NCBI GenBank assembly: GCA_903896015.1
Contig: CAITWF010000009.1
Span: 62,001 to 126,000 of the forward strand
Direction of reading: 5' to 3'
Length of the DNA stretch: 64,000 nucleotides
Source of the DNA: an uncultured Opitutia bacterium
GTDB lineage: Bacteria; Verrucomicrobiota; Verrucomicrobiia; Opitutales; Opitutaceae
Of the stretch, positions 5,410 through 25,345 are shown one piece after another (the first letter of the stretch is position 1; every line of letters starts with the position of its first letter). A program made the position numbers and the translations under genes. The notes under the pieces are model-generated. The model had not been told where the DNA came from and made no database searches. It saw nothing but the letters and a program-made list of their open reading frames with translations.

Positions 5410-6372
5410 TTACGTGCCGCCGTAAAGCCCCGCGAGCTCCACCAGCAGTTTTTCCAGCTCTGAAAAATAGGTTTCCTCCACCATCCGCGGCTTCGCCTCG
5501 CGCAACTTCGCCACCGCACGCTCCAATTCGTCCCGCCGTGCGCGCGCGTCCGCGGTGAGTTGCTTCTCCGCCGCACTGCGCACGAGGAAAAACTGATTCG
5601 CCCGCGTGCCGTCGAGCGCCGCCCCCTCCTTCGCCTGCTTCGTCGCGCGCACGCCCTTGAACCACGCCGCCGGTGTGCCGAGGCCGTCCCCGTTGTCGTC
5701 GATCAGCGCGTGCTCCGTCACGAGCCGGCCCTCGGTCTTGTAGAACTCCTCCGTGCGCCGCGCCGCGCTGAGAAACGCCTCCAGCAGCGACACCTGCCCG
5801 TCCTTGTCGAGATCGCTCGCCGAATCTGCCATCGCCTCGGCGAAATATTTTCCGAACCGCGAATAGTTCTGCTCAAATCCGCTCCGCGTCGAGGTGACAA
5901 TCGCCCGATTTGGGCCGGCGAGTTTGTTCAAGAACGGCGCGCTCGCCGACGACGTGTCGATGATCGCCAACGGGCGGTGAAACGGCTTCAGCCATTCCGC
6001 GAGCTCACCCGACGACACGTCTGGTCCGCGCAGATTGAATTTCGCCTCCTTGCCGTCGAACGTCCCGTGCCCGAACAGCACTATCCAGAATTCACCCGGG
6101 CCGTCCTTGGGCTCAGCCGCGATCGCCTGTTTGAGCCGATCGTGGTCGCTCATCGCTTCCGCCACCCCGCTGCCGACCATGATCAACTTCGCATCGGCGA
6201 GCGCGCAGAGTCCCGCCCACACTTTTACCTCGCCCTCAAACACCGACGCAAACTCCGCCTCACCCGGCGCCCCCGCGACGACAATCACCGTGGAGCGATC
6301 GACGGGCACCTCGACCGCCTGCGTCGCGCTGGCCACCATAACCGCGATTAAGGCGAGGATTGCGCGCTTCAC
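5410..6372 (-). CDS. Secreted caspase-like protein with EF-hand loop, catalytic Cys replaced by Ser
   Basis: A 320-residue protein with a signal peptide (a hydrophobic N-terminus ending near ASATQA). The central part resembles caspase/legumain-type (C13/C14) folds: a hydrophobic strand leads to FGHGTFDG (His102, where the catalytic His is expected), and a second strand ends in LAIIDTSSAS (Asp139 to Ser144), where DxC would carry the nucleophile. No Cys is present there. A textbook EF-hand loop, DLDKDGQVSLLE (residues 187-198), follows, then a second acidic stretch DDNGDG (225-230) and a charged C-terminal helix. The GTG start overlaps the upstream stop by four bases, indicating translational coupling. 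Known family proteins of this kind are uncharacterised; the fold assignment is inference. Confidence 0.6.
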   Translation of the reverse strand: MKRAILALIAVMVASATQAVEVPVDRSTVIVVAGAPGEAEFASVFEGEVKVWAGLCALADAKLIMVGSGVAEAMSDHDRLKQAIAAEPKDGPGEFWIVLFGHGTFDGKEAKFNLRGPDVSSGELAEWLKPFHRPLAIIDTSSASAPFLNKLAGPNRAIVTSTRSGFEQNYSRFGKYFAEAMADSASDLDKDGQVSLLEAFLSAARRTEEFYKTEGRLVTEHALIDDNGDGLGTPAAWFKGVRATKQAKEGAALDGTRANQFFLVRSAAEKQLTADARARRDELERAVAKLREAKPRMVEETYFSELEKLLVELAGLYGGT

Positions 6373-8747
6373 GGCAGTCCTTTCCACCGGCGCACGCCCC
6401 ACTCCGTCAGCAGACACGCCAGTGCGAACGCGAACATTGCCGGCGTGTGCCATGCCGGGTAGGACCACGTCTCCATCACCGGCGCCTGCAACTGCGGCAG
6501 CTTCTTCGCGAAATTGTCCAACTCCGCCGCCGCGATTACCTGGCCGCCGGTCTTGCGCGCGAGTTCCCCGAGCAGCGCGGTGTTCGGCGTCAGCGAGCGA
6601 AATTCCTCCGCCGCGAGATCGGTGCTCCAGCCGGCCGAGGCTCGCCCAAGGTCGGCACCCGCGTTGTTCGTCACGCGCGCGGTCGCCTTGTAGCCGCCCG
6701 TCTGGTGCGGCACGTAGGTCGCCTGATAGAGCCCCGGCTCGCTCAACGCCGGCTCCGCCTCGATCTGGATCGGACGTGCCATCCCACCCGCGTCACCAAA
6801 AGCGATCGGCTCAATCTCGATTTTCACCGTCGCATCGTCGACCGCCTGGAATTTTTCGTCGCGCACGCGCACCTGCACGAGCACCGCGCCGTTCGGATCG
6901 GCGGGCTGCGACGCCGCGGTGCAATCGACGCGGTTCGGCACGTCCGCCACGAGCCAGCGCACGAGCTGCCGCCACGCTTTGTCCATGTCGGCGCGCGCCG
7001 ACGCGTCCTTCATACCCCAGCGCCACACATCGCCGAGCATGAGCGCCGCCGTCCGACCGCGGCCGAAACGCTGCACCGCGAGCGCGGGCAGCTCGGCGCT
7101 CTTCTCGTCCCGCACCGTCGCAATCACGCTCGCGCCCGGCTTCAGCGCCCGCACACGGTTGATGATGCCAAAGGAGCGCATGCTATCGAGCCGCGCGCGC
7201 TCGTCGGCCTCGTTGTCGCGCAGCCGCGCCCACGCCTGCAGCCAGCCTTCGCGCGCGAGATCGAGACGCAACTCACCCGGCGGTCCGGCCGGCGCACCCT
7301 CGTCATGATCGAGGTAAACGGGCAGCATATCGCCGACCGGCGTGCGCAGGTAGCCGCCCTCGTGGAAGCTTTCCATGCCGCCCAGCATCAAGAAACCGCC
7401 GCCGCGCTCCGACACGAATTTCTGCAACAGCATCGCCTGCTCCGGCGCGAAAAACTCCGCCTCCAGATCGTCCACGATCACCGCCTGATAACCGTAGAGT
7501 TCCTCGGGCGTGCGCGGAAACCCGGCGCGCAACTCGACCTCGTCGCGCGTGTTGAGGCGCACGAGCACGGGTTGATCATAACGCTGCACTTCCTCCGGCG
7601 ACTGGCTGCCGAAACCGCGGAACAGCGGATTGCTGGTCTCGCCCGCGCGCCCGCGAAAATCGAACTTCGGCTCGCGCTTCGCCACGCGAATCAACCCGAC
7701 GAGTTGCACCTGAGAGTCCTCCTCAATCGCGCGGTTGAGAAACTTGAACTCCCAATTCGGCCGCCCCGCCACGTAGAGGACGCGAAACGGCCCCTCGCCG
7801 CGATCGACCGCGAGCACGTGCGTGTTGTTCGCGAGCGTCGCCTCCTCCGATTTGGCGCCCGGCGCGGCGGAGATTTCCGCCTGCGCGCCGACGCGCACTT
7901 GATAGAACGATAGGCCCGGCAGCTCCGGCTTCACCTGAAAGCGAAACGCCAGCGTCTCGCCGTCGCCGCGCGGCTCTGCCGTCTGCTCCTGCACGATTTT
8001 GCCATTCCGGTCGACGAGCCGCGCGACGACGGGCGTGCCGCGAAATCCGGCGGCCGTCACGTCGGCTTGCACCGTGACCGGCGCATCCTCGAACGCGCTC
8101 TGGCTCACGCGCACCTGCTGCACTGCGATGTCGCGAACCGGCTCACTGCGCCCGATGACCACGGGATAAATCGGCGGCAATCCCTTCACGTCCGACAGCG
8201 TGCCGCCAGGGAGATCCGTCGCGTTGCCGTCGGTGAACAGCAGCACGCCCGCGAGCGGCCGCCCCTGAAAACGCTCCGCGATCGTGCGCAGCGCCGCGCC
8301 GAGCGAGGTCGCACGACCGTCAAACGCGAGCTCATGAAAATCCGTCGTCGCCTGCAGCCGCGTGTCGAAGAGATAGCGCCGCACATCGAACGTGTTCGCC
8401 AGCGTGGCCTGCCAGCCCGCGCCGCGCGGATCAACGAGGTCGCGCAGCGCCTCACCGCGGGTGCGCACGTCGCCGCGATCGTGGATTTGCAAGCCCTGGC
8501 TGTTGTCGGCGACAACCGCGAAGAGATTCGCACCGGGCCGCGCGCGCTGACCGAGCCAGCGCGGCTCCAGCAGGCAGGCCGTCAGTGCCGCGATGCCGGT
8601 GAGTTTCAACCCCAGGCACAGCCAGCGCACGGCCGGAGAAGCTGGCGCGCGATAACTCCACACCAGCAGCGCGAGTCCGACGCCAAACAGCACGAGCGCC
8701 GGCCAGAGCCAGTTCAAACCGGAGAGTGTGAGCGAGGGCGACGGCAT
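6369..8747 (-). CDS. Membrane-anchored vWA/glutamine-amidotransferase-like protein
   Basis: About 792 residues. Two N-terminal transmembrane segments (LWPALVLFGVGLALLVW and LGLKLTGIAALTACLL) precede a vWA-like region where the MIDAS is degenerate (VADNSQGLQ) but LLFTDGNATD is kept. Residues near 400-460 form a class I glutamine-amidotransferase-like fold (LQKFVSERGGGFLMLGG, then ESFHEGGYLRTP) without an obvious catalytic Cys-His pair. A C-terminal TM is followed by a short tail. Proteins of this build accompany BatA/MoxR genes in Planctomycetes and Verrucomicrobia; their function is unknown. The start is ATG at 8747, touching the upstream stop (TGATG); a GTG at 8750 is an alternative. Confidence 0.8.
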   Translation of the reverse strand: MPSPSLTLSGLNWLWPALVLFGVGLALLVWSYRAPASPAVRWLCLGLKLTGIAALTACLLEPRWLGQRARPGANLFAVVADNSQGLQIHDRGDVRTRGEALRDLVDPRGAGWQATLANTFDVRRYLFDTRLQATTDFHELAFDGRATSLGAALRTIAERFQGRPLAGVLLFTDGNATDLPGGTLSDVKGLPPIYPVVIGRSEPVRDIAVQQVRVSQSAFEDAPVTVQADVTAAGFRGTPVVARLVDRNGKIVQEQTAEPRGDGETLAFRFQVKPELPGLSFYQVRVGAQAEISAAPGAKSEEATLANNTHVLAVDRGEGPFRVLYVAGRPNWEFKFLNRAIEEDSQVQLVGLIRVAKREPKFDFRGRAGETSNPLFRGFGSQSPEEVQRYDQPVLVRLNTRDEVELRAGFPRTPEELYGYQAVIVDDLEAEFFAPEQAMLLQKFVSERGGGFLMLGGMESFHEGGYLRTPVGDMLPVYLDHDEGAPAGPPGELRLDLAREGWLQAWARLRDNEADERARLDSMRSFGIINRVRALKPGASVIATVRDEKSAELPALAVQRFGRGRTAALMLGDVWRWGMKDASARADMDKAWRQLVRWLVADVPNRVDCTAASQPADPNGAVLVQVRVRDEKFQAVDDATVKIEIEPIAFGDAGGMARPIQIEAEPALSEPGLYQATYVPHQTGGYKATARVTNNAGADLGRASAGWSTDLAAEEFRSLTPNTALLGELARKTGGQVIAAAELDNFAKKLPQLQAPVMETWSYPAWHTPAMFAFALACLLTEWGVRRWKGLP

Positions 8748-11700
8748 CACTTCGTGTCCGGCTTGTCCTTGCCGAGTTCCTCGTAGTAACGCCGCACCGA
8801 ATCCGCGAACCGGTTCGGCACGGGATCGCGATCGATCGGGGCGAGCTGATCGCGTGGGTCGCGGCGGGCGAGTTCCTCGGCCACCCGGCTACGCACCTCG
8901 ACCAGCGGCTTCAAAATCTCCAGCTGCACGACCGCCCAATCGGGCTTGTCGTGTTTCACCGCATAGTCGCGACGCAACAGCCGGGCTCGCTCACGCGCCG
9001 CCGCGACCGCCGCGCGCAGCTCCTGCGAGTCGAGCAGCGTCTCGACATCGCGCAGCCGCTCCGTCCACGAACCAAAATTACTTCCGGTCAGCGGCCCTCC
9101 AGCGTAGGCGCCGCCAATCGGCCCGCCGTCAATCGCCCCACCCACGGCGTTGTCACGACCCTCAAGCAGGTTGGGCAAGTCGATTCCCGGACGCGCCCCA
9201 CCGCCACCCGCGCCCGCGCGCGGATCGCCGCTCGCGATCTGTCCGCGATCGCCAGCCAGCGGGGACGCCTTGCCGGTCTGATTTCCCGACGCGCTGCTCG
9301 ATTTACCCTCCCCGAGTTTGCCGCCCCCCTGCTGCGGATCGCCCGAAGGTTGATCACCGCTCGCTGAAGACTGCCCCGGATCATTGTTCGCCACCTTGCC
9401 CGCCGATCCGGACTGATCTGAATCTTGTTCCTGACCGGGCTTGGAGGGATCGCCGGACCGTCCGCCCGCTGCAGATTTTTCGCCGGGCTTGCCCTGCCCT
9501 TGCGCGATCTCACGGCGGATCTGATCCGCGAGTGAATCGAGTTCGGATTGCGCGAGCTTCAACTGCTCGGTGTCGTCGCCCAGCACGCTGTCCGCCGCGC
9601 GCTCGACGCCGCGGCGCAGTTCATCCGTCTCGCCGCGCGCGCGCTGGCCGGCCTGCCGTGCGAGCGGCAGGTTGCCGTCGCGCAACAGCTCGCGCGTGAG
9701 ATCGATTGCCTTGCCGGCGTCTTCCCTCTCCCCGACCTTGTCGAGTCGATCGAGGAGGTCGCGCGTGATCATGCCGCTGTTCAGCAGTTCCTGTTTCGCC
9801 TGTTTCAGCGTGTCGCTGTCGTCGGTGTTGAGCTTGCGCACACTGTCGTAGAGTTGCTTCGAAAGCAGCGGCTCGGAATTTTCCGCCTGCTCCGACACCT
9901 GCTTCGCGCGATCGACGAGCTGGTTCATCTTTTCCTTTTGCTGCGCGAGCTGTTCCTGCAACTTCGCCTGGTCGCCGGAGTCGCCGAGCGACTTGCGCTG
10001 CGCCGTGCCGCCGAGCGCGTCGATCGCCTTGGACAAATCGTCCTGCTGCCGCGCGAGATCCCGCGCCTCGGTTCGCATCTCTCGCAGATCGTCGGCGAAC
10101 TGGCTGGAGTTTTCCTTCCGCAGATCGTCGCGCATCTGCTGGAACGAACGCTGCGCGCGCGTGCCGGCCGCCAACGCCTGTGCCACGGATCCGGAACCGG
10201 TCGCTTGCGCCGCGCGCTGCAAGTCCTCGCGCGTCTGCTCGAGCTGCTGCCGCTCCTGCGACATGCTTGACTGGTTTTCCGGGCGCTCCATCCGCTGTTT
10301 GACCTCGTCGGCGTCGGCGAGCATCTGCTGCTGCTCCTCCTCGAGCCGCTTTAGCCGGCGTTTCAAATCTTCGCGCTCCTGTTCGGTCTTGGATTCCTGC
10401 AACGCCGTCTGCAACTCCTTCAGCCGTTCGTTCAAGTCCTGCTGCCGCTTCGCGAGCTCCTGCAAACGGTTCATCACCTGGAGTTGCTCCTGCCGCTGCG
10501 CGCTCTGCGGCGCCTTCGCCTGGCGCTGCGTCTCGTAGCGGTTCTGCGCCTGCGTGAGATCGAGCTGATCGATCTGGCGCTGGCTGGCGCCGCCCCCGCC
10601 TCCGCCCCGGCCGCCACGGCTGCGGGCAACTTGGGTTTCGCGCGCCTGCAATTTCAACAGCGCCTGATACGCCGCCTGCTCCGCGGTCACCGCGACTCCC
10701 AGCGGCGCGGGAGACTTCGCGGCGTCGCGTAGTTTCGTCAGCGCCTTTTCCATTTCGTCGCTCGCAGCTTTCCACAGCGCCTGCTCGCGCGGGCCCTGCG
10801 CCTTGTCGCGCGACTCGTTCGCCTGATCGTTCGCCTGCGCCTGCGAGTCGGTGACGACCTTCACATCCTCCACGTAGTGCGGCGTGGCGCCATCGCGCTG
10901 GAGTCGCCAAGTCGCGTTAATGATTTGTTTCTGGAGCTCGGTGAGCTTGCGTGTGGGGCTGTTGCCGCCACCGCCCTGCTGCTGCGTGTCATCCTGCGAC
11001 TGCATGCCCTGGCTCTCGCGGAAGACCTCGTCGAACGGTCGGACTTCGGCGAAAAACAAGTCTCCCTTCGTGCGCCGCACTTGACCGTCGGGTCCGACAT
11101 CGTCGGCCCACACATACCACGACACAAGATCGTCCGGCTTCGCATGGAGGTCTTCAAGTTTCAGCGTGTAGCTGAACGCCCGTTTGTCCTTCGCACCCGC
11201 GTCGCGCCCGAGTTCGATCGTTTTTTCGGGCTGACCGGCGAGTTCGTAGGTGAGCCCGTAGCTCGGCGTGCCGAAGTCGTCAAACACCGTGCCGTCAAAC
11301 GCGATTTCCTCGAGCGCCGACGGCCGCACATCGCCCCGCGGTGTCGTGAGTTTGATCTCCGGCGGCCGGTTCGGCTGCACATCGATCACAAACGAAGCTC
11401 CGACCTTGTTCGCACGACCATCCGCGTCGACGAGCTTCAAATCGTAAACCTGGCTCGCGGCAAACGCGGTCGCCGGCAGTGACGCCCCCGGCTTGCCCGC
11501 TTCGACGGTGAGCGGAATTTCAGTCTTCGTCTTGTCTCGCGCCACGAGCTTCGCCGAAGCAACGGGTTTGTTGAACTGAAGCGTGAAGCCGAGCTTTGTG
11601 CCCTCGACGGCGCTCACGCGTCGCGTGTCGTCGATGTGCTTGGGCTGAATTTTGGTGTAGCCCGGAAACGTGAGGTCGGCGTCGGCGCGCACGAGCCGCG

Positions 11701-12523
11701 GGTGCTCGAAGACTTTCACGTTGAACTCCCGCGTCGACCGTCCGCCGTAGTCGACGTGATAGGTGAAGTCGGCCGCGACCTCGGGCACGCTGCCTCCAAA
11801 CACCGGATCGGCGAGGCTCTTCACAAGCGGGATCGCGCGCGTAGAGGAGGAGGCGCTCGCTGCCGGATTTTTTTCGCGAACCACCAGCGTCACGCTCGGC
11901 GGCAGCGTGCGGGCAAAACGCGCGAGCACGACGAGGCTGTCACCTTTTTCGATGCTCGTGTCACCCGGCGCGATCGAAAGTCCATCCGCACTGACCCAGC
12001 CGGTGTCAGTCGGGGTGCCGGCAGCGGGGGCCATCCGGACATTGGCGAGGGCCGCAACAAACGCCGCCAGCGCCAAGCACTGCAACGCCGCCGCCGCCGC
12101 GAGCCGACGGGTCGGCACCACCTGCCGCCAGTCCCGCTCGGTGCTGCGCGCCGTCGCATCCTGTAGCACCCGGTGCTGGAGAAAATTCGGCGTGGCCCCC
12201 GGCTCAATCACCTGTTGCACGGCCGTGAGCAGCACGCCTTGCAACTCGGGATGAGCCTGCTCGATTGTTTTGGCCGCCCAGCGGAAATCCGGCGCGCGCG
12301 CGTAGTGCAGCATCGCGATCGCCGTGATCGCGGTCGCGGCCAGGCCAGCCAACAGCGGCAGCACCATCGGCGCGCGCCAGCCGGTCGAACGTTCCACCCA
12401 GATTAAACCGGCGCCGACCAGCGCAGCCAGCATCCAGCACGCGGCGAGCTTGAGCATCAGCCCAAGCCATTGCTGGCGGCGAATTACCCGCCGCAGCCGT
12501 TCTTTCAGGAATTCCTCGTTCAC
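8747..12523 (-). CDS. Large coiled-coil membrane protein (DUF4175-like)
   Basis: A protein of 1258 residues. Two N-terminal transmembrane segments (about residues 20-65) are followed by a beta-rich extracytoplasmic part containing Ig-like stretches (for example LTFPGYTKIQPKHIDDTRRV). A very long Gln/Glu/Lys/Arg coiled coil then runs from about residue 520 to 1000. The final part is a low-complexity Gly/Ser/Gln/Asp region and a conserved-looking tail with FGSWTERLRDVETLLDSQE. The layout resembles DUF4175 proteins. The GTG start overlaps the BatA gene's stop (GTGA). It probably serves as a scaffold in the MoxR/vWA system; no catalytic motif is visible. Confidence 0.8.
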   Translation of the reverse strand: MNEEFLKERLRRVIRRQQWLGLMLKLAACWMLAALVGAGLIWVERSTGWRAPMVLPLLAGLAATAITAIAMLHYARAPDFRWAAKTIEQAHPELQGVLLTAVQQVIEPGATPNFLQHRVLQDATARSTERDWRQVVPTRRLAAAAALQCLALAAFVAALANVRMAPAAGTPTDTGWVSADGLSIAPGDTSIEKGDSLVVLARFARTLPPSVTLVVREKNPAASASSSTRAIPLVKSLADPVFGGSVPEVAADFTYHVDYGGRSTREFNVKVFEHPRLVRADADLTFPGYTKIQPKHIDDTRRVSAVEGTKLGFTLQFNKPVASAKLVARDKTKTEIPLTVEAGKPGASLPATAFAASQVYDLKLVDADGRANKVGASFVIDVQPNRPPEIKLTTPRGDVRPSALEEIAFDGTVFDDFGTPSYGLTYELAGQPEKTIELGRDAGAKDKRAFSYTLKLEDLHAKPDDLVSWYVWADDVGPDGQVRRTKGDLFFAEVRPFDEVFRESQGMQSQDDTQQQGGGGNSPTRKLTELQKQIINATWRLQRDGATPHYVEDVKVVTDSQAQANDQANESRDKAQGPREQALWKAASDEMEKALTKLRDAAKSPAPLGVAVTAEQAAYQALLKLQARETQVARSRGGRGGGGGGASQRQIDQLDLTQAQNRYETQRQAKAPQSAQRQEQLQVMNRLQELAKRQQDLNERLKELQTALQESKTEQEREDLKRRLKRLEEEQQQMLADADEVKQRMERPENQSSMSQERQQLEQTREDLQRAAQATGSGSVAQALAAGTRAQRSFQQMRDDLRKENSSQFADDLREMRTEARDLARQQDDLSKAIDALGGTAQRKSLGDSGDQAKLQEQLAQQKEKMNQLVDRAKQVSEQAENSEPLLSKQLYDSVRKLNTDDSDTLKQAKQELLNSGMITRDLLDRLDKVGEREDAGKAIDLTRELLRDGNLPLARQAGQRARGETDELRRGVERAADSVLGDDTEQLKLAQSELDSLADQIRREIAQGQGKPGEKSAAGGRSGDPSKPGQEQDSDQSGSAGKVANNDPGQSSASGDQPSGDPQQGGGKLGEGKSSSASGNQTGKASPLAGDRGQIASGDPRAGAGGGGARPGIDLPNLLEGRDNAVGGAIDGGPIGGAYAGGPLTGSNFGSWTERLRDVETLLDSQELRAAVAAARERARLLRRDYAVKHDKPDWAVVQLEILKPLVEVRSRVAEELARRDPRDQLAPIDRDPVPNRFADSVRRYYEELGKDKPDTK

Positions 12524-14625
12524 GATGGAGCCTCCTCGAGTTTCGGATGCGCCCGGCGGGCCGCGCGGCCCGCCAACGCCGTTTCAATCAACAACACCGC
12601 GAGGGTCGCGGCGATGAACCAACGCCAAAGCTTCTGCCGGTTTTCCGTCTCGGCGCCCGCCAGCAACTTCGGATCCGCTGCGGCCGCAGCCGGTGCTAGG
12701 CTCGCCGCCGTCACGGGCACACCGAGGTGTTCCAACTCGTCCGTGCCAAGCGGAGCAGTGCGGCTTTCAGCGGGATCAAGATTCACCGGGAGGCGTAGCA
12801 CGCGTCCATCCGCGATGATTTCATAGATTCCCGGCTCGTCCGTGTCGGCAAAACTCGTCGCACCCATGGGCAACGTGATCGTCTTTGCCGCGGGCGTGCG
12901 CAGCGTGACCGCGTCACGACCGGCGGGCACCGGCAATGCATCGCCGACTATCCACTGCGCCGCCGCGTCGGGCGCGCCGCCCGCCAGTTCGAGCAGCGAG
13001 TAGGTCAGTGGGACGAACTTCGACGACACCGCGAGTTGACTGTCGTCCGGCTGCCAGCCCGCCGCCAGCACCACGATCCGTCCGCGCCCAACAGGCACAT
13101 CGATCACCGCCGGATCTCCGCTGTCGAACTTCGCGACAACGTGCGCATCGGGCAGCGTGCCCGCGTCGAACTTCCGATATTTCCAGAAATGGATCTTGGT
13201 GAAGTCGCTGAACCGTGGGTCGGCGAATGCGGCGAACAGCGGGTGCCGAAAATCGATCTCCGCGAACATCGCGTAATTAGCCACGCGCGCCTCCTCGATC
13301 GGGACGGAATCACGGCCGAGCAGCGCCGCGAGCGTCGGGGCCGCGGCGGCCGATTTCGGTGCGAAGACAATCGTCTTGCCGTTGACCACTTCGGCGCGGA
13401 GCGCAGCCGCCTGCGCTGGCGCCACTGCCTCCGAAACAAAAATTATCGTGGCAGCGGCGGTCTCCGTCGGCAGCAACGGAGCGCTCAGCCCATGCGCCAC
13501 GACTTTCACGGCGAGCCGCGGCGAGTCGGTCAACGCGCGGCGCAGGAAGAACAGTGGCTGCGTGGTGTCGTCGGCGAGTTCGCTGCCAAGCCAGAGCACG
13601 CCCAGCTTCTGCTGCGCGGGCGGAATCACAAAGACCGTGTTATCGAAATCCTCGTCGTCCCCGCGCAACCCGATGCGTGTGAGTCCCGTCGCGCCCTTCG
13701 GCAAGGGCACCGCCAGCACGCGGCTCTGCCCCGGCGGCACATAAAGATCAATCGGCGGTCCCGCGAACTCGGCGTTTTCAGGGCGCAGCCAGCCGACTTT
13801 GAACTGCTCACGCGGGGAATCGGACGCGTTGGTCACACGCACGCGAACCGCGACGCTGCTGCCCGCCACGGCTTCCGCCGACTCGGCGATTAACTGCACG
13901 CCGGCGTTCGCGTTGCTGCGCGCCTTGATCGGCTCGACGACAAGCACCACGCCCTTCGGCCATTCGTAGGCCTGCAATGCATCGAGCCGGCTCCCCGCCT
14001 GCACATCGCTCACGAGCACAATCTCGCGCGGGCCGAGCGTCGCTTTTTTCTCGTCCGGCTCGGCGAGCGTCTCGGCGGCCGTAATGAGCGCACTGCCAAG
14101 ATGCGTGCCCGACCAACCGGGCGAAACCGAATCGATCCGCGCCGCCACCAACCCAGCGCGATCAGCGGGTGGCACGCGATTCCAATCCTCGAACGAAACC
14201 AGCGGCGTGACGCGCCGATCGAACGTCAGCACCGCCACCTGATCGCCCGGCGCGGCGCGGCGGACGGCGGTGTTCACGCGCTCACGGGCGGCGCTCCACA
14301 GACCGGCGCGCCGCATGCTCGCGCTCACATCGACGAGCACCACGGTGCGCTTCGGTTGGACGCTCGTCGGATCGACCACGGGTGATTGTTTGAAAAACGG
14401 CCGCGCGAATCCCAGCGCGAGCAGCGCGAGCGCGAGGCAGCGCAACAGCAGCAGCAGCCAGTGCTCCAGCCGACTGCGCCGCGACAAGCGCGGCGGCGAC
14501 GGTCGCAGAAACATCAGCGAACTGAACGTCGTCCGCTCGCGCGTCGTCCGGCGAATGAGGTGAAAAATCACGGGCGCGGCGAGCGCGAGGCCGCCGAGCA
14601 AAAAGAAGGGCGCGAGAAAATTCAT
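12520..14625 (-). CDS. BatA/von Willebrand factor A domain membrane protein
   Basis: A 701-residue protein. The N-terminus is a classic BatA segment: FLAPFFLLGGLALAAPVIFHL then LIRR, followed by a second TM (HWLLLLLRCLALALLALGFARPFF). A vWA domain follows with an intact MIDAS start, VDVSAS (Asp99, Ser101, Ser103). The remainder is a periplasmic beta-rich region with a GATase-like segment, and a last TM (LWRWFIAATLAVLLIETAL). BatA proteins are substrates or partners of MoxR AAA+ ATPases. Its start ATG overlaps the DUF58 stop (ATGA) and its own stop overlaps the next gene, so it is translationally coupled on both sides. Confidence 0.88.
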   Translation of the reverse strand: MNFLAPFFLLGGLALAAPVIFHLIRRTTRERTTFSSLMFLRPSPPRLSRRSRLEHWLLLLLRCLALALLALGFARPFFKQSPVVDPTSVQPKRTVVLVDVSASMRRAGLWSAARERVNTAVRRAAPGDQVAVLTFDRRVTPLVSFEDWNRVPPADRAGLVAARIDSVSPGWSGTHLGSALITAAETLAEPDEKKATLGPREIVLVSDVQAGSRLDALQAYEWPKGVVLVVEPIKARSNANAGVQLIAESAEAVAGSSVAVRVRVTNASDSPREQFKVGWLRPENAEFAGPPIDLYVPPGQSRVLAVPLPKGATGLTRIGLRGDDEDFDNTVFVIPPAQQKLGVLWLGSELADDTTQPLFFLRRALTDSPRLAVKVVAHGLSAPLLPTETAAATIIFVSEAVAPAQAAALRAEVVNGKTIVFAPKSAAAAPTLAALLGRDSVPIEEARVANYAMFAEIDFRHPLFAAFADPRFSDFTKIHFWKYRKFDAGTLPDAHVVAKFDSGDPAVIDVPVGRGRIVVLAAGWQPDDSQLAVSSKFVPLTYSLLELAGGAPDAAAQWIVGDALPVPAGRDAVTLRTPAAKTITLPMGATSFADTDEPGIYEIIADGRVLRLPVNLDPAESRTAPLGTDELEHLGVPVTAASLAPAAAAADPKLLAGAETENRQKLWRWFIAATLAVLLIETALAGRAARRAHPKLEEAPS

Positions 14626-15581
14626 CGCGCGCCTCCCCGGCCGCCGCGCGCAGCGGGCCGGAATTTCCGGCCGCGTTTCGTCCGCTCCTGCAGGAACTCA
14701 AATAGCGCGATCTCCAGCGGCTGCGCAGTCGACAGCAAATGGTGGCTGACGCCGAGCCGGCGACAGATCGCCCGCAATGCTTCGCAGTGCGCCATGAGCT
14801 TTTGCGTGTAGCCCGCACGGGCCGCGGCCGGATCGATATAGATCGCCTGGCCCGTCTCTACGTCTTCAAACAACGCCGCCATTTCCAGCCCGAGGTTGAG
14901 TTCCGCCGGATCGAGCACCTGGAAGACGCTTACCTCGTGACCGCACGCGGTGAGTGTCTGGAGGTTGCGCTCGAGCCGATCGAGTGGCGCGAGAAAATCA
15001 GAAATCACCGCGACGAGCCCGCGTTTGCGCACGAGCGCGGTGATGCGTTCGATCGGCGCGACGAGATTGGTCTCGCTACCCGCCGCGGGTCGCTCGAGCG
15101 CGATCATCAATTGACGCAAATGGCCCGGCCGGTGGCGGGCAGGCAGATACTCCCGCACCTGCGAATCAAACGTGAGCAAGCCAACTGCGTCACCCTGCAA
15201 ATCGAGAAAATGTCCGAGCGTCGCCGCGAGCGTTGCCGCGTAATGCGCCTTCGTGTAGCCGCGCGTTCCAAAATCCATCGAGCGGCTCTGATCCGCGAGG
15301 AGGTGGCAGCGGAGATTCGTTTCGTCCTCGTATTTCTTGATGTAGTAGCGATCGCTCCGCGCGTAGACGCGCCAGTCGAGATAACGCGGATCGTCGCCCG
15401 GCGTGTAGGGACGATATTCGGTGAACTCCACCGAGAATCCGTGGTACGGGCTGCGGTGCAGCCCGCTCCAAAATCCCTCGACGACCGCATGCGCCCGCAG
15501 TTCGAGGCTGCGGATGCTCATCAGCGCCGCTGGATCGATCAGCGAGGCGCTGGGCGCGGGACGGGGAGCAGGCGCGACCAT
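14622..15581 (-). CDS. DUF58 domain protein
   Basis: A 319-residue soluble protein. The DUF58 signature is clear: YRPYTPGDDPRYLDWRVYAR followed by a DRYYIKKYEDET segment, then a vWA-like core with LLADQSRSMDFG (DxSxS-type motif) and LVAVISDFLAPLD. DUF58 proteins almost always accompany MoxR ATPases and are thought to be their vWA partners. It begins seven bases after the MoxR stop and overlaps the BatA gene by four bases. No membrane segment is visible, so it probably acts at the cytoplasmic face with MoxR. Confidence 0.92.
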   Translation of the reverse strand: MVAPAPRPAPSASLIDPAALMSIRSLELRAHAVVEGFWSGLHRSPYHGFSVEFTEYRPYTPGDDPRYLDWRVYARSDRYYIKKYEDETNLRCHLLADQSRSMDFGTRGYTKAHYAATLAATLGHFLDLQGDAVGLLTFDSQVREYLPARHRPGHLRQLMIALERPAAGSETNLVAPIERITALVRKRGLVAVISDFLAPLDRLERNLQTLTACGHEVSVFQVLDPAELNLGLEMAALFEDVETGQAIYIDPAAARAGYTQKLMAHCEALRAICRRLGVSHHLLSTAQPLEIALFEFLQERTKRGRKFRPAARGGRGGAR

Positions 15582-15588
15582 GGGAAAA

Positions 15589-16632
15589 TCACGCGGACTT
15601 CACCGGCAGCGGCGTCGCCGCGAGCAGGCGCTTAATCACTTCTTCAACGCGGATGCCGTCGGCCTCGGCGCGGTAGTTCAACAGCACGCGGTGCCGCAGC
15701 GCGGGAGCAGCGAGCGCCTGGATGTCCTCGATCGTCACGTGTGCGCGACCCTGCAGCAGCACGCGGGCTTTGGCGCCGAGGATGAGGAATTGTCCGGCGC
15801 GGGTGCCGGCGCCCCAACTTACCCAGTCGTTCACAAAAGCCGGCGTCGCAGCCTGGTTCGGGCGCGAGGCGGCGGAGAGTTGCACGGCGTAGCGCACCAT
15901 TTCTTCGGCGACCGGCACCTTGCGCACGAGTTCGTGGAAGCTCTGCACATCCTCGCCCGTGAAGAGCGGCGTGATTGCGGCGGGACGCGTCGAAGTCGTC
16001 TGCGTGACGACACTGACTTCGTCCGCCTCCGGCAAATAATCCATCACAACGTTGAACATGAAGCGATCGAGCTGCGCCTCCGGCAGAGGATAAGTGCCTT
16101 CCATCTCAATTGGGTTTTGGGTGGCCAGGACGAAAAACGGCTCGGCCAAAACGTGCTTCACGCCCGCTGCGGTGACTTGATGCTCCTGCATTGCCTCGAG
16201 GAGCGCCGCCTGGGTCTTTGGCGGCGTGCGGTTGATTTCGTCGGCGAGGATCATGTTGGCGAACACCGGTCCGGGCACAAAGACCATTTTCCGCGTGCCT
16301 CCGAGGTCCTGCAAAATCTCCGTGCCCGTGATGTCCGCCGGCATAAGATCGGGCGTGAACTGGATGCGTTGAAACTTCAGGTGAAAGATCTGCGCGATCG
16401 ATTTCACGAGGAGCGTCTTCGCGAGGCCGGGCGCGCCCGTGATGAGGCAGTGCCCGCCGGCGATGAGCGCGATCATGATTTGCTCGATGACGTCGCGCTG
16501 GCCGATGATCACCTTGCCGAGTTCGGCTTCGATCCGGGCGCGGCCCTCGAACAGTTTTTCTGCGGTTTCGCGCTCAGCGGCAAAAGCGGCGCTGGCGTTG
16601 CTGGTCGGGGCGGTTTCGGTGGGTGTGCTCAT
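15589..16632 (-). CDS. MoxR family AAA+ ATPase
   Basis: A 347-residue AAA+ ATPase. The Walker A is GAPGLAKT (residues 66-73), the Walker B is LADEINRTPPKTQAALLEAM, and a sensor-1 region reads FVLATQNPIEMEGTYPLPE. A C-terminal lid with ARVLLQGRAHVTIEDI completes the MoxR layout. MoxR proteins act as chaperone-like activators that load cofactors into, or assemble, vWA-containing partners. Here the partners are the DUF58 and BatA products immediately downstream. It is the energising element of the nine-gene operon. Confidence 0.95.
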   Translation of the reverse strand: MSTPTETAPTSNASAAFAAERETAEKLFEGRARIEAELGKVIIGQRDVIEQIMIALIAGGHCLITGAPGLAKTLLVKSIAQIFHLKFQRIQFTPDLMPADITGTEILQDLGGTRKMVFVPGPVFANMILADEINRTPPKTQAALLEAMQEHQVTAAGVKHVLAEPFFVLATQNPIEMEGTYPLPEAQLDRFMFNVVMDYLPEADEVSVVTQTTSTRPAAITPLFTGEDVQSFHELVRKVPVAEEMVRYAVQLSAASRPNQAATPAFVNDWVSWGAGTRAGQFLILGAKARVLLQGRAHVTIEDIQALAAPALRHRVLLNYRAEADGIRVEEVIKRLLAATPLPVKSA

Positions 16633-16650: not shown

Positions 16651-17661
16651 TCAATGCGTCATCAGGTAGAAGACGATGTTGATGCCGAGGGGATAGGCTA
16701 CCTTCTCGGAAAAAGTGTGAAAGTAGTCGAGGTTCTCGCCCTCACGCTCCCAGCCATCGCTCACGTCGCTGTTGTGAATCGCGACGACCATCATGCGGCC
16801 CTTGTCGTCAAACCACGCGCGGACGTGCATGTTTTCCGAGCCTTCGCCGCGAAAGACCCGCGAGAGACGCGAGGTCGGATCGTTCGGATCGAAATTTTGA
16901 TTCCAAAACTGCATTGTCGGGATTTGCAGGCGGTTCATCGGACCGCGCAGTTCGAACACGCTGTGAAAGATCGGGTGCTCCATCGTCAGCTCCGTCCAGC
17001 CGCGGCCGGGCAACACCCGCTTCATCTGGTCCTCGAAACCGTCCCACTCGCGTTGGCTCCAAAAATCGTTCACGAACAGCGCACCGCCGTTATTCAGGTA
17101 ATCGTGCAACCGCTTCACCTCGGCCTCGCGCAACTCCATGAAGCCCGTGTGCTCCATGTAGACCATCGGGAAGTCCGCAAGATCAGGATCGGTCAGGTGC
17201 AGCGTGCGCGCATCGGGGTCGACCTTCATCGAGGTCATCTGCTGGAGCCGGTAGGAAAAATTCAGATCGGCATCAGGAAAATCGACCCACCAACCGAAGC
17301 GCCGCCCCGTCCCCCACCCGCCGCCCGTCCCGCGACCCATGCCGACCTTGAAAATGATCCGCGCAAACGTGAACACGTCCTTCTCGAAGCCCGGCGGATT
17401 TTTCCACTCCGGCGTGCCCGTGCTGTGCGAATCTATCTCGCGCGCCGTGCGCACGGTGTCGGAGTCGACAAGACGACCGCCCTCGATGCGCACGATCGGG
17501 CCTTCGTCGTCCTCGTTGCCGTTCCAACCCCAGCCTTGCGGCGGACCGAAGCCACCACGTCCGCCGCGACCCTGACGCGGCGCCGACTGCTGCGCGAAAT
17601 CGGCGCCGGCGCACCCGAGCGCGAGCGCGATGACAGCGAGAGTTTTTTGGCGGACGTTCAT
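16651..17661 (-). CDS. DUF4159 secreted protein, copy 1
   Basis: A 336-residue protein with a signal peptide (KTLAVIALALGCAGADFAQ) and a Gly/Arg-rich linker near residues 28-45. The rest is a DUF4159 domain: FPDADLNFSYRLQQMTSMKV, LADFPMVYMEHTGFMEL, LNNGGALFVNDFWSQREWD and WFDDKGRMMVVAIHNSDVSDG. To my knowledge DUF4159 has a glutamine-amidotransferase-like fold with no assigned activity. It is followed by MoxR (18-base gap) and preceded by a close paralogue (one base between them). The two are about half identical by eye, indicating tandem duplication. Confidence 0.88.
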   Translation of the reverse strand: MNVRQKTLAVIALALGCAGADFAQQSAPRQGRGGRGGFGPPQGWGWNGNEDDEGPIVRIEGGRLVDSDTVRTAREIDSHSTGTPEWKNPPGFEKDVFTFARIIFKVGMGRGTGGGWGTGRRFGWWVDFPDADLNFSYRLQQMTSMKVDPDARTLHLTDPDLADFPMVYMEHTGFMELREAEVKRLHDYLNNGGALFVNDFWSQREWDGFEDQMKRVLPGRGWTELTMEHPIFHSVFELRGPMNRLQIPTMQFWNQNFDPNDPTSRLSRVFRGEGSENMHVRAWFDDKGRMMVVAIHNSDVSDGWEREGENLDYFHTFSEKVAYPLGINIVFYLMTH

Positions 17662-17662
17662 C

Positions 17663-18577
17663 TCAGTGCGTCATCGCGTAGAAGATGATGTTAATTCCGA
17701 GGGGATAGGAAACCTTCTCGGAAAAATTGTGGAAGAAATAGTCGCTCTCGCCTTCGCGCTCCCAGCCGTCGCCGTTGTCGGTGTTGTGCGTGGCGATGAC
17801 CATCATCCGCCCCTTGTCGTCGAAGATCGCGCGGTGGTGCACGGTGCGGACGTCACCGTCGTGATTCGTCTCCCACGTGCGGTGCTGCGGATCAAATTCG
17901 CTTTGGATGCCGAGGCGGACATTCGGCACCTGATACTTGGCCTTGATCTCAAACACGCAGTGGTAAACCGGATGTTCGAGCGGCAGCTCGGCGAAATCGC
18001 GATCGGGGAGAACGCGTTTCAGCACGCGCTCGGCGTTGCGCCACTCGCTGTCACCCCAAAAATCGTCGAGCATGAGAAAACCGCCGTTGGTGAGGTACGT
18101 GCGGAGCGCCGCGATCTCCTCGTCCTCGAGCGCGAGCGAGCCGGGCTCGACCATGTAGATGAATGGAAAATCCGCGAGGTCCGGATCGGTGAGATGGATG
18201 AAGCGGCCGTCGGGGTTGACCTTGAGCGCCGTCATCTGCTGGAGCCGGTAAGAAAGATTGAGATCGCTGTCGGGCGTGTCGGTCGCCCAGTTGCCGCGCG
18301 GGCCACCCGGGGTGTGGCCGCGACGGACGCGGACGAACGTGAACGTGTCCTTTTCAAATCCCGGCGGGTTCGTCCACATCGGTGTGCCGGTGCTGTGCGA
18401 GTCGAGTTCGCGCGGCGTCTTCACGTCCGCCCCGATCCACCCGCCCTCGCCCCACGTGCCGCCCGCGGGATCCTCGAGGTCGCCGCCGCCGCGACTGCGG
18501 CCGTTGCGATACGGGCGCTGGGCGAGCAGCGCGCCCACGACGATCAGAAACACGAGGACGAGCGCGGCGCGTTTCAT
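17663..18577 (-). CDS. DUF4159 secreted protein, copy 2
   Basis: A 304-residue paralogue of the downstream DUF4159 protein. It has an N-terminal hydrophobic signal (ALVLVFLIVVGALLAQ) and the same landmarks: ELDSHSTGTPMWTNPPGF, LNLSYRLQQMTALKV, LADFPFIYMVEPGSLAL, LTNGGFLMLDDFWGDSEW and IFDDKGRMMVIATHNTD. It lacks the longer Gly-rich linker of copy 1. Its ATG overlaps the stop of the TPR/peptidase gene (ATGA), so the two are co-translated. Function unknown; probably periplasmic. Confidence 0.88.
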   Translation of the reverse strand: MKRAALVLVFLIVVGALLAQRPYRNGRSRGGGDLEDPAGGTWGEGGWIGADVKTPRELDSHSTGTPMWTNPPGFEKDTFTFVRVRRGHTPGGPRGNWATDTPDSDLNLSYRLQQMTALKVNPDGRFIHLTDPDLADFPFIYMVEPGSLALEDEEIAALRTYLTNGGFLMLDDFWGDSEWRNAERVLKRVLPDRDFAELPLEHPVYHCVFEIKAKYQVPNVRLGIQSEFDPQHRTWETNHDGDVRTVHHRAIFDDKGRMMVIATHNTDNGDGWEREGESDYFFHNFSEKVSYPLGINIIFYAMTH

Positions 18578-21177
18578 GTCTTTGGTGCCGGAGCCAGCGC
18601 TTCCGGGCCGCGCAATTCGAGGAGCAATTTCAGTGCCTCGCGGTAACGCGGCGCCTCCTCCAGCGCGAGCAGCGTGTGCCGGCGGGCATCGTCGTTCGCG
18701 CCCGTTTGGTGGAGCAGTTGCGCGAGCTGAAAATGCACCGCCGCCGGGTCGGCGGGCTCAAGTTGGAGCAAGGTCCGCAGCGCCGCGATCGCAGTCGAAG
18801 TGTCGTTCGTCGCCGTGCTGGCTTGCGCGAGATAGCGCCACGGCGACGCGACAAGTGGATTCACGCGGAGAAACCGCTCAGCGTTGATCGTCACCACCGG
18901 CCAGTCGCTCACGGCGGCGCCGAGTTCCATGAGCCGGAGATACGCCTCCGGTGCCTCGTCGTCGATCGCGGCCCACTTCGTGAGCGCGGCGCGCTCGGCC
19001 GTCGCATCGCCCAGTTCGCGGAGCACGGCAACGAGCGGGCGATACGGCGTGTCGGCGCCCTTCTCGGCCGGATTCAGCGCGGCGATCTTCGTGAGCAACA
19101 CGCGCGCCTCCTCCCATTTCTTTGCCTCCATGAGCTGCTGCGCCTGAAGCGACAGCGCCCAGTAGTTGTCCGTCTTTTTCTCCGCCTTCTCACCGGTCAC
19201 GGCGACCGAAACGATGTCCACCGCATCCTTCGGCAAACGCGTCCAGTCGAGCCCAGGCGCCAGACGCGCCGCGCGCTCGTGCACGAACGCGGAAAAATCT
19301 TTTTCCAGTTGTTCGATCGGGGCGACGTTCTTCGCGAGCGCCGCGTTGATTTCGCGGCCGTCGCGCAAGTCGCCGAGCACGCCGCGCAGGTGATCGAGGC
19401 CGTAGCGGTTGATGATGAACTCGACGACGAGTGACGATTCGAGATACGCAAACTGCAGATAATCCGCTGACTTTGGCGCGAGAAACGCCGCGCTCAACGA
19501 CGCCACCGGCGTCAGCTCGCCCTTCGCGATCATCTCGCTGTAGCGCGCGTTGAGCCGCATGCCCCAGGCCGGATCGGCCTGCCGCTCCTCATAAACGGAG
19601 ATGCCTTCGCTCAGCCAACGCGGCATCCGGTTGCGGGTGAGCTGCAAGGTGACCGCGTGGCAAAATTCGTGCCACAGCACCGACTCCCAATTCACAGGAT
19701 GCCCGCCCGTCGCCGCCGGGCCGTTGGCCGTGACGACGCGCCCGAAGCACACGCCGAGAAAGCCCGGCACGTCCGGCATCCCAAACGTCCGCACCGCGAA
19801 ATCCTTTTGATCGGCGAACACCTCCACGTAGGTCGGCGATGCGAGTTCGACGCCGTATTTCGCCGTGAGCGTGTTCTTCGCCCGCCGCAGCAGCGCGAGC
19901 ACGCGCGGACCGTAAATCGTGACCTCGTTGGCCGCCATGCGCACGACGAGATCATCGCTCTTGAGCGAAGCGTATTTCGCCATCGTATCGTGCAACGTGA
20001 CGAGATTGAACGCCTCCACATCATACTCGTCGCGCTCGTGCACGGCCTGCGCAAGCCGCCAGCCCTCGTCCTCGTTGCCGAGCCGCAGCATATCCGTCGC
20101 GAGCTGGGCGTTGGCCGGCAGATAGCCCGGATCAAATTCGATCGCGCGGCGCTGGTAGGCGGCGGCCTCGGCGAAGCGGTATTTTTGGGCGAGCTTCTCG
20201 CCGATCAGGAAATCGACGCGCGGGTTCGTGGCCCAAGTGCTGAGCGCCGCGTTGTGCGCGGCAGCTTCAGCGTCGTCGTCGTGGCGCAGATGCGCCAGCA
20301 CCGCGCGATAGGCCCAGGCATCGGGCTGCATCGGATTCACCGCGAAGACGCGATCGAGGAGCTTCGCGGCCTCGGCATACTCTTCGGAATCGATCCGGTT
20401 CGCCGCGAGCAGCAGCAGGCTCGGGACGTGGCGCGGATTGAACGTGATGGCCTGATTGAGTGCAGTCAGCGCGATATTCTCGGCGTCGACGCGCGTGTCG
20501 GCGTAGGCCCGCGCGCGCCCGAAAAGCAAATCCGGATCGTCGGGAAGCTGCTTTAGGCCCTCGTCGAACGCGCGCGCCGCGAGCGCAAAGTCGTGCTTGT
20601 CGAGGGCGAGTTCGCCGCGGGCGAGATAGACATCACGCAGCTTCGGCTCAGCCTTCTGCGCCGTCGCGAAAAGTTTATCGAGCACCTCCTTCGGATCGTA
20701 GCCGAGCAAAATGAAGGCGCGTCCGATCACCACGAGATCGACGGGCGTGCGGTAGAGCCACTGACGCGAGGTGACGAGCCGGCGGATTTCCTGCAGGTAG
20801 TTCGCCGCCTCCTCGGGCTTGCCGTTGGCAAACGCGATGTCGCGCCCGAGCCAGCGCAGCCGGATGCTCGTCGGTTCGCGCACCAGCGCCGCCTCGATCG
20901 TATGCTGGGCCTCGATGTTTTTGCCGACTGCCAGTTGCGCTTGCGCCACCAGTAACGCCCAGTCCACGCCAGTCGGGTTGTCACGCAGCCCCTTCGCGCC
21001 ATGGTCGATCACGAAAGCATAGTTTCCTGCGAGCAGCTCCCGCTGCGAGTCAGCTGCGTCCGGCTCGGCGGCCCTCGCGCGCGAGGTCAGCCCGAGCGCG
21101 ATCAGCGACGCCGTCCAAGCGAGCATGGTCGTTCCCTTGGTGACAAGGCGCGAAAGACCCGTCCAACGCGGCTTCAT
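18574..21177 (-). CDS. TPR protein with HExxH metallopeptidase-like (peptidase MA) domain
   Basis: About 867 residues. The N-terminus looks like a signal peptide (MLAWTASLIALGLTSRARAA). The first half holds TPR-like helices. Around residue 500 a gluzincin motif appears: WHEFCHAVTLQ with the zinc-binding HExxH, and WLSEGISVYEE, whose Glu about 20 residues later is the expected third ligand. More TPRs follow to the C-terminus. It probably acts in the periplasm as a peptidase or as a protein-binding scaffold. It heads the minus-strand MoxR run and is divergent from the adenosine deaminase gene. Start choice is open: ATG 21177 used, ATG 21126 also possible. Confidence 0.82.
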   Translation of the reverse strand: MKPRWTGLSRLVTKGTTMLAWTASLIALGLTSRARAAEPDAADSQRELLAGNYAFVIDHGAKGLRDNPTGVDWALLVAQAQLAVGKNIEAQHTIEAALVREPTSIRLRWLGRDIAFANGKPEEAANYLQEIRRLVTSRQWLYRTPVDLVVIGRAFILLGYDPKEVLDKLFATAQKAEPKLRDVYLARGELALDKHDFALAARAFDEGLKQLPDDPDLLFGRARAYADTRVDAENIALTALNQAITFNPRHVPSLLLLAANRIDSEEYAEAAKLLDRVFAVNPMQPDAWAYRAVLAHLRHDDDAEAAAHNAALSTWATNPRVDFLIGEKLAQKYRFAEAAAYQRRAIEFDPGYLPANAQLATDMLRLGNEDEGWRLAQAVHERDEYDVEAFNLVTLHDTMAKYASLKSDDLVVRMAANEVTIYGPRVLALLRRAKNTLTAKYGVELASPTYVEVFADQKDFAVRTFGMPDVPGFLGVCFGRVVTANGPAATGGHPVNWESVLWHEFCHAVTLQLTRNRMPRWLSEGISVYEERQADPAWGMRLNARYSEMIAKGELTPVASLSAAFLAPKSADYLQFAYLESSLVVEFIINRYGLDHLRGVLGDLRDGREINAALAKNVAPIEQLEKDFSAFVHERAARLAPGLDWTRLPKDAVDIVSVAVTGEKAEKKTDNYWALSLQAQQLMEAKKWEEARVLLTKIAALNPAEKGADTPYRPLVAVLRELGDATAERAALTKWAAIDDEAPEAYLRLMELGAAVSDWPVVTINAERFLRVNPLVASPWRYLAQASTATNDTSTAIAALRTLLQLEPADPAAVHFQLAQLLHQTGANDDARRHTLLALEEAPRYREALKLLLELRGPEALAPAPKT

Positions 21178-21334
21178 GCGCGAGAAAAGGGCGGCGGGTT
21201 GCTCATCGGGGAAACGCACGCTCCAAGCCAGACGCGTGCCGGACCAAAGAGTAATACGTGCTCGCGCGATTTCTCAAGCGCTCGCGCGCTTCTTGCGCAC
21301 TTGCACCCTTACATTCGGCAGGCTGACATTGCCC

Positions 21335-24682: not shown

Positions 24683-25345
24683 GTGGCCACGAGCACCGTT
24701 GAAAATTACCTCAAGCAAATCCTCCTGCTTTCCGCCGGCGACGACGCCCTGGTTTCAATGGGCGATCTTGCAGCCGCACTCGCGGTCGTGCCCGGCACCG
24801 CCACCACGATGGTCAAGTCGCTCGCCTCCGACGGCCTCGTCGATCACCACCTGCGGCACGGCGTGCGGCTGACCGCGGCCGGCCGGCGCGTGGCCCTCGG
24901 CGTCCTGCGCCGCCACCGCTTAATCGAAACATTTCTGGTGGAGGTGCTGAAGATGGACTGGACGGAGGTGCACGCCGAGGCTGAGCTGCTGGAGCATGCC
25001 ATCTCCGACGCCGTGCTCGACCGTCTCGACGCCCTGCTCGGCCACCCTGCGGCCGATCCCCACGGCGATCCGATTCCGACACGGCTCGGCAAGATAGACG
25101 CACAGGTCTACGCGACGCTCGCGACCTGCGTGGTCGCGCAGCCGCTGCGGATCGTGCGGGTGACGGAGCAATCGGGCGAGTTTCTCCAGTTCGCCGAGCG
25201 CAATGGGCTGCGCCCCGGCGCCCGTGTGCGCGTCGCGGAACGCGATCTCGCGGCCGGATTAATCACGCTGAAGAAAACCTCCGGCCGCACGGTGGCACTC
25301 AGTTTGGCAGCGGCGGGCAACATCCTCGTTGCGCCGGCGCGCTGA
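24683..25345 (+). CDS. mntR: DtxR/MntR-family metal-dependent transcriptional regulator
   Basis: 220 residues. The N-terminal winged helix reads TVENYLKQILLL, MGDLAAALAVVPGTATTMVKSLASDGLVDH. The metal-binding/dimerisation region follows with RRHRLIETFLVEVLKMDWTEVHAEAELLEHAISD, where Glu, His and Asp/Glu ligands align with DtxR-family sites. A C-terminal FeoA/SH3-like domain (LRPGARVRVAERDLAAGLITL) makes it longer than Bacillus MntR and closer to DtxR/IdeR in layout. The start is GTG. It probably represses mntH when manganese is replete. Confidence 0.9.
   Translation: MATSTVENYLKQILLLSAGDDALVSMGDLAAALAVVPGTATTMVKSLASDGLVDHHLRHGVRLTAAGRRVALGVLRRHRLIETFLVEVLKMDWTEVHAEAELLEHAISDAVLDRLDALLGHPAADPHGDPIPTRLGKIDAQVYATLATCVVAQPLRIVRVTEQSGEFLQFAERNGLRPGARVRVAERDLAAGLITLKKTSGRTVALSLAAAGNILVAPAR

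Follow-up and report, generated by a model that had tools for sequence, protein, structure and literature searches.

In peptidases of clan CD the catalytic histidine is preceded by a glycine and then followed by another glycine (PMC12445089). The catalytic residues of caspase-fold proteins are not always retained. Among the metacaspases of Planctomycetes the Cys-His dyad was reported to be kept in 64%, and serine was given as the commonest replacement for the cysteine in prokaryotic metacaspases (PMC3501461). Pseudo-orthocaspases have tyrosine and serine in place of the histidine and the cysteine (PMC6426788). Activation by calcium is known in metacaspases and in gingipain (PMC4357240). In the MoxR-VWA conflict systems, about 70% of the caspase domains found in the effector position were called inactive (PMC7159879). 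MoxR proteins are thought to be chaperone-like ATPases, and one of them, RL3499, plays a part in the integrity of the membrane and in cell morphology (PMC3893208); in Borrelia, the VWA domain of the BatA-like protein BB0173 lies on the periplasmic side (PMC5700661).

Here we describe a caspase-fold protein encoded at the end of a MoxR operon in an uncultured Opitutia bacterium. The window, that is, the whole stretch of DNA analysed, comprises 64,000 nucleotides of contig CAITWF010000009.1.

Materials and Methods

A search with the single window protein gave matches in 24 of 95 related genomes, its own genome included. Profile searches gave matches in 30 of 387 genomes of its own phylum and in 39 of 294 genomes of the phylum to which Singulisphaera sp. 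GP187 belongs, weak distant matches being included in both counts. Among named genomes a scan turned up at least 558 relatives. The 80 best of them were retained; their record titles mostly point to Verrucomicrobiota and Planctomycetota, some of the names being vague or doubtful. Five records titled Klebsiella pneumoniae, Proteobacteria or Akkermansia muciniphila (L098, L099, L091, L093 and L127) carry the gene together with its operon neighbours and group with verrucomicrobial relatives on the tree; they are probably misnamed assemblies.

The tree has 150 rows, namely matches at E 1e-6 after removal of identical cores and of rows with fewer than 120 filled columns; L025-L028, L030, L032, L038 and L044 (repeats) as well as L135-L156 had been left out beforehand. 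It is a tree of the quick type with long branches flagged. The main clade of 129 rows was cut from it by hand at a branch with a support of 94 that is not starred, and 21 rows fall outside. Since patterns derived from the two acidic loops had served to find 74 of the 129 rows, conservation of the loops is also quoted for the 55 rows found without them. Start codons of the relatives were judged by eye. Residue numbers in the AlphaFold2 model are the protein numbers minus 1.

Results

The gene and its protein

The features of the locus are listed in Table 1. The 320-residue open reading frame is on the minus strand, and the plus-strand frame over the same interval is not the gene. The N-terminus of the protein has a short basic-hydrophobic stretch of the Sec-export type, and residues 4-24 form a hydrophobic segment. 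By a crude hydropathy rule, applied in place of a signal-peptide predictor, a hydrophobic 12-mer lies ahead of the core in 123 of the 127 main-clade relatives that have enough upstream sequence. Further along, the protein reads F100-G101-H102-G103, D139-T-S-S-A-S144, the loop from D187 to E198 and DDNGDG at 225-230. A sequence-only reading of this DNA had named each of these motifs and proposed that the protein is exported; all the residues are present as it claimed, and the relatives agree with export.

Table 1. Genes of the MoxR run and features of the caspase-fold protein in the window
Feature	Position	Strand	Basis or remark
Exported caspase-fold protein, 320 aa	5410..6372	minus	GTG start 6372-6370, stop 5412-5410
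N-terminal signal peptide, about residues 1-19	6316..6372	minus	sequence; cleavage near TQA-VE by eye
G101-H102-G103, catalytic-His motif of the caspase/legumain fold	6064..6072	minus	each residue 129/129 in main clade
D139-TSSASAPF147, nucleophile region	5932..5958	minus	Ser142 (5947-5949) at nucleophile position
EF-hand-like calcium loop, residues 187-198 (DLDKDGQVSLLE)	5779..5814	minus	conservation; shuffles; flanking model helices
Second acidic loop, residues 220-229 (EHALIDDNGD)	5686..5715	minus	E220, D226, D229 129/129
C-terminal helical hairpin, about residues 274-318	5419..5553	minus	model helices 273-295 and 298-317
GATase1_like (PF07090) protein, N-terminal membrane segments	6369..8750	minus	directly upstream of caspase-fold gene
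Long membrane protein, presumably DUF4175-like	8747..12523	minus	no Pfam match at E 0.001
BatA + VWA membrane protein	12520..14625	minus	Pfam
DUF58 protein (VWA-like)	14622..15581	minus	Pfam
MoxR AAA+ ATPase (AAA_3)	15589..16632	minus	Pfam
Two DUF4159 genes	16651..18577 (16651-17661, 17663-18577)	minus	Pfam
TPR + Peptidase_MA_2 protein, head of run	18574..21219	minus	Pfam

The sole Pfam match of the window protein was a sub-threshold EF-hand (EF-hand_5, 11 bits against a cut-off of 25.9), and a search of NCBIfam gave one match, weak and unrelated. Neither Peptidase_C13 (PF01650) nor Peptidase_C14 (PF00656) matched the protein at E 1 or its genome at E 0.001. Matches to PF01650 occur in 17 of 288 genomes of the phylum, at 20 loci; a motif scan of these loci returned frames at six of them, including an obviously spurious one, and no DDNGD-type motif was seen in any by eye.

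Predicted fold

The AlphaFold2 model, built with an alignment of 24 sequences (A1), is a confident caspase/haemoglobinase fold with a pLDDT of 90.5 and a pTM of 0.87. In a Foldseek search 78 PDB chains matched it with an E of 0.001 or lower, and a caspase gave the lowest value (E 1.4e-06). When the matches were re-aligned, legumain (4nol_A) came out on top with a Z of 19.1 and an rmsd of 2.4 over 193 residues at 11% identity, and metacaspases and the catalytic subunit of GPI transamidase ranked lower; the C-terminal helical hairpin is scarcely covered by these matches. By this model, which is a prediction and not a solved structure, the window protein is of the clan CD fold. The sequence-only reading had proposed a caspase/legumain fold, to be given up if a predicted structure lacked it, and the fold was indeed predicted. 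A sequence search of PDB chains with alignment A1 gave matches at chance level only (best E 0.089), so that the kinship of the family to solved structures rests on the fold.

The nucleophile position

The histidine of the motif is invariant in the main clade and is flanked by glycine on both sides throughout, as in clan CD. The nucleophile position is a different matter, being Ser142 in place of the cysteine. An hhalign alignment of A1 with a sister subfamily, A2 (E 5.2e-39), pairs Ser142 with the cysteine of the sister member L188 (SACGSDGF), with no gap nearby. The earlier suggestion of a DxC site without its cysteine therefore stands as regards the missing cysteine and fails as regards the place, which it had put at the third residue of DxC, Ser141. 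Ser141 was rejected as nucleophile because the alignment puts the site at 142 and residue 141 varies among A, T, G, S and F.

Residue 142 is serine in 119, alanine in 9 and proline in 1 of the 129 main-clade rows (48, 6 and 1 of the 55 rows found without the loop patterns). The automatic column is uncertain by about one residue in L052 (TSCAG), L185 (NPCHSGG) and the L048/L049 pair, where it reads S, P and T. An older count over 114 unique rows, a few distant ones among them, which the present count supersedes, gave S 104, A 6, T 2, P 1 and E 1 at residue 142, with H102 in 113. An ordinary active cysteine peptidase was rejected since cysteine occurs at 142 in none of the 129 rows; the sequence-only reading, with its retained histidine and absent cysteine, thus holds for the clade as well as for the window protein.

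Ten residues of the histidine motif and the loops (G101, H102, G103, D187, D191, S195, E198, E220, D226 and D229) are present in 129 of 129 rows, and likewise in all 55 rows found without the loop patterns. In the ten rows without Ser142, His102 and Ser144 are retained and so are the acidic residues of the two loops; H221 or N227 is changed in three of the ten. The nine Ala142 rows fall at about eight places on the tree. Serine/alanine changes at this residue require 10 steps on the 150-row tree, and at least seven changes are forced by starred branches for the whole Ala142 group (11 rows, two of them outside the main clade). Among 235 columns of the main clade, Ser142 ranks 43rd by entropy and His102 4th, tied with others at zero entropy. 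The Ala/Pro142 members that were inspected, L081, L086, L121 and L163 (= L201), stay in the operon slot. Since 10 of 129 rows have alanine or proline at 142 and keep His102 and the invariant loop residues, a pseudo-protease is favoured over a serine-dependent variant; the sequence-only reading had offered both. Repeated loss of Ser142 while the histidine and the loops stay fixed makes it unlikely, judged from the alignment, that Ser142 is an essential nucleophile.

Calcium-type loops

The 12-residue EF loop pattern has a single match among the 307 open frames of at least 100 residues (67,435 residues) in the window. It arises in 42 of 20,000 shuffles of the window protein, and a stricter version in 1 of 20,000; a chance motif was rejected on the strength of the shuffles and the frame scan together. 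In the AlphaFold2 model the loop lies between helices, as in an EF-hand. Position 13 of what we take to be the PROSITE EF-hand pattern is missed, the window protein having Ala199 there. Conservation is a stronger argument for the loop than the pattern: in the 55 rows found without loop motifs, D187, D191, S195 and E198 are kept in all 55, and residue 189 is D in 50 and N in 5. Conservation of the loop among homologues, on which the earlier suggestion of an EF-type loop had been made to depend, is thus borne out. The second acidic motif, E220-H-x-x-x-D225-D-N-G-D229, is as constant as the EF loop at E220, D226 and D229. From this conservation, the two acidic loops very probably bind calcium.

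EF-type loops are also seen in the cysteine-bearing relatives L185, L179, L182 and L231. L185 has both loops together with a cysteine, which makes the loops independent of the loss of cysteine. The EF loop as an invention of the window family was rejected on the same protein, whose locus showed none of the operon genes.

Sister subfamily and distant relatives

Subfamily A2 comprises 9 sequences from Planctomycetota and other deep branches. Position 142 in the sisters is cysteine in L179, L182 and L184 and serine in L178 and L180. With the Peptidase_C13 cut-off at 22.8 bits, two of the five A2 members scanned score above it, namely L188, which has the cysteine (28.1 bits), and L197, which does not (26.2 bits); L190 (21.0 bits) and L196 (16.3 bits) fall below it and L187 has no C13 match. 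The bridge protein L192 (= L185), which is outside the operon, reaches 19.2 bits. The Pfam scan named no family in L195 and gave only weak EF-hand matches in L198 and only chance matches in L043. The AlphaFold2 model of A2 (pLDDT 78.8) matches legumain and metacaspase with a Z of 19.9. The alignment with A2, the C13 scores and the A2 fold together indicate that cysteine-bearing C13-like proteins either gave rise to the window family or have a common ancestor with it.

The gene neighbourhoods were compared in 16 wider regions. A GATase1-like gene directly precedes the sister members L187-L191, three of which have the cysteine. At L194, L196 and L197 the sister member comes after the GATase1-like gene with one or two DUF4159-like matches between them, and the distant lone relative L195 is preceded by a weaker GATase1-like match. 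No operon genes were seen in the regions of L192 and L193. The region of L201 has a main-clade member in the usual operon place, and that of L202 has MoxR about 2 kb downstream. Since sister members in the same slot have cysteine or serine, the loss (or change) of catalysis can be traced within one gene position.

A third group, L198-L200, has threonine or alanine at 142 and retains the EF-type loop; it lies immediately upstream of MoxR and not after a GATase1-like gene. L024/L044/L202, L046, L047, L050, L051 and L054 are distant relatives having a caspase-like N-terminal domain with degraded motifs, and their longer frames resemble, by eye, a DUF3857/transglutaminase-type protein.

The MoxR operon

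The run in the window reads, in one direction, TPR/Peptidase_MA, two DUF4159, MoxR, DUF58, BatA-VWA, DUF4175-like, GATase1-like and the caspase-fold gene, with spacings of -4 to 18 bases. Successive 4-base overlaps join DUF58, BatA, the DUF4175-like gene, the GATase1-like gene and the caspase-fold gene; the last gene of the MoxR run, as it had been called from the sequence, is indeed chained by them to the genes upstream. The MoxR protein scores 207 bits with AAA_3 and 39.8 bits with bpMoxR (cut-off 27), and over eight operon proteins Pfam named no VMAP, iSTAND or FtsH. The TPR/Peptidase_MA_2 protein has a HEFCH motif and is possibly an active protease of the same operon. Elsewhere in the window, an NRAMP-like transporter frame (23237-24604, minus strand) is divergent from a DtxR/MntR-like regulator frame (24683-25345, plus strand), both named by eye.

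At 76 of the 80 named loci (the best 80 of at least 558) a GATase1-like gene on the same strand is no more than 0.75 kb upstream. Three of the other four (L101, L103 and L134) have at most 248 bases upstream; the fourth, L126, has 10 kb upstream and is a genuine miss. The more distant genes were recovered at fewer of these best 80 loci (DUF4175-like at 66, BatA at 50, DUF58 at 46 and MoxR at 39), many of the loci being short or ending within the 10 kb flank; where the flanks reach, the order is mostly MoxR-DUF58-BatA-DUF4175-like. Four loci (L084, L087, L104 and L130) have 10 kb upstream, yet only one or two operon genes were found there.

The full-length GATase1-like gene and the caspase-fold gene are present together in 23 of 95 genomes, the same 23 for both genes, and are adjacent in all, a count that is uncorrected for shared ancestry. 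In these genomes the GATase1-like matches have E values of 3.2e-121 or better and the gaps to the caspase-fold gene are 0-249 bases. Seven of the 95 genomes have weak partial GATase1-like matches and no caspase-fold gene, and G041 has weak matches to both. By single-protein search the window gene was not found in 71 of the 95 genomes; among these 71 is the only further genome from its genus, and so the gene is not essential to its order.

Discussion

The fold, the change of nucleophile, the conservation, the gene order and the co-occurrence computed here tie an exported caspase-fold protein without a catalytic cysteine to a MoxR/VWA operon in Verrucomicrobia and Planctomycetes. As to its function, we infer with some confidence that it is an exported, calcium-stabilised pseudopeptidase working in a MoxR/VWA machine of the envelope, as one of its subunits or as its receptor for substrates. 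Binding of calcium, lack of cleavage, membership of a complex and the part of a receptor would each belong to this proposal. The machine would consist of the MoxR, DUF58, BatA, DUF4175-like and GATase1-like proteins together with the caspase-fold protein. MoxR and DUF58 would act from the cytoplasm. The pseudopeptidase would work at the outer face of the inner membrane, paired specifically with the GATase1-like membrane protein encoded next to it. Calcium may hold the loops round the old active site, which would bind a peptide or the tail of a partner with no cutting. In that case the protein could be a receptor or adaptor that gives the membrane VWA proteins access to a substrate in the envelope. 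We propose this exported receptor or adaptor on the basis of the presumed chaperone-like role of MoxR proteins, the membrane role of RL3499 and the periplasmic VWA domain of BB0173. A pseudo-caspase role in a MoxR machine becomes directly testable.

The same protein might instead be an active hydrolase with a serine nucleophile on the caspase/legumain fold, in which a Ser142-His102 dyad, switched by calcium, would process envelope proteins for the MoxR machine. The serine majority (119 of 129) and the invariant histidine are also compatible with a catalytic dyad that some members lost later, Ser142 is aligned with the cysteine of L188, and the acidic loops are conserved. We nevertheless regard such an enzyme as unlikely: ten members have alanine or proline at 142, alanine having arisen at about eight places, while His102 and the invariant loop residues are kept, the four such members inspected also keep the operon, and Ser142 is far less constant by entropy rank than His102. 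We know of no caspase-fold peptidase with a serine nucleophile. A historical form of the idea, in which a cysteine peptidase lineage of planctomycetes and verrucomicrobia became a calcium-gated Ser142-His102 envelope hydrolase or transpeptidase next to the MoxR machine and then lost its nucleophile several times, seems to us quite doubtful.

A purely structural calcium-binding exported protein, co-transcribed with the MoxR machine and having no tie to it, is improbable. The open-licence literature searched, as far as its available text goes and among the matches listed, reports a function for no member, which would suit such a protein; the gene order is kept across two phyla, however, the two genes share one set of 23 among the 95 genomes, and a divergent sister subfamily occupies the same operon slot. 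Cys140, two residues ahead of the nucleophile position, occurs in 43 of 129 main-clade rows, and the window protein has threonine there; Ser144 is found in 125, the other four rows having glycine. Ser144 needs no catalytic role, for it aligns with the serine two places after the cysteine of L188 (CGS). An active enzyme with its nucleophile shifted to Ser144 or, in about one-third of the members, to Cys140 is thus very improbable despite these frequencies, given the glycine rows and the minority standing of Cys140.

For an exported pseudopeptidase of a MoxR machine, the nearest operons are those of the Bat and RL3499-RL3502 type, which likewise combine MoxR with DUF58 and VWA membrane proteins. 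A caspase-fold member is not mentioned for them in the text available, and the word caspase is absent from the available text of the Leptospira Bat paper (PMC3557215). The MoxR-VWA conflict systems share MoxR, VWA and caspase-fold partners with the window operon, but here the caspase-fold protein is separate and exported and no VMAP or iSTAND was named by Pfam in the eight operon proteins scanned; the words DUF58, BatA and DUF4175 are absent from the main text on those systems as available (PMC7159879). Titles and abstracts of the open-licence literature, among the matches listed, gave no description of this protein in this operon. An invariant histidine alongside a lost cysteine, export, loops of the calcium type and a constant slot in an operon of the DUF58/BatA type make up a combination that is new as far as the literature searched goes.

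Pseudo-orthocaspases and substituted prokaryotic metacaspases resemble the window family in being caspase-fold proteins with lost catalytic residues. The window family differs from pseudo-orthocaspases in its invariant histidine (129 of 129 main-clade rows, with no tyrosine), its export and its tie to a single operon. Legumain and peptidase family C13 of clan CD are like it in the predicted fold, the His-Gly motif and export, and two sister members pass the Pfam C13 threshold. Against these likenesses, the window family has serine (or alanine or proline) for cysteine and an EF-type loop. The window protein itself has no Pfam C13 match at E 1, and in place of the LSAM domain described for legumain (PMC4357240) it carries a short helical hairpin at its C-terminus. 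By fold and alignment the window protein is kin to the clan CD peptidases, yet it has a serine where the clan has its catalytic cysteine.
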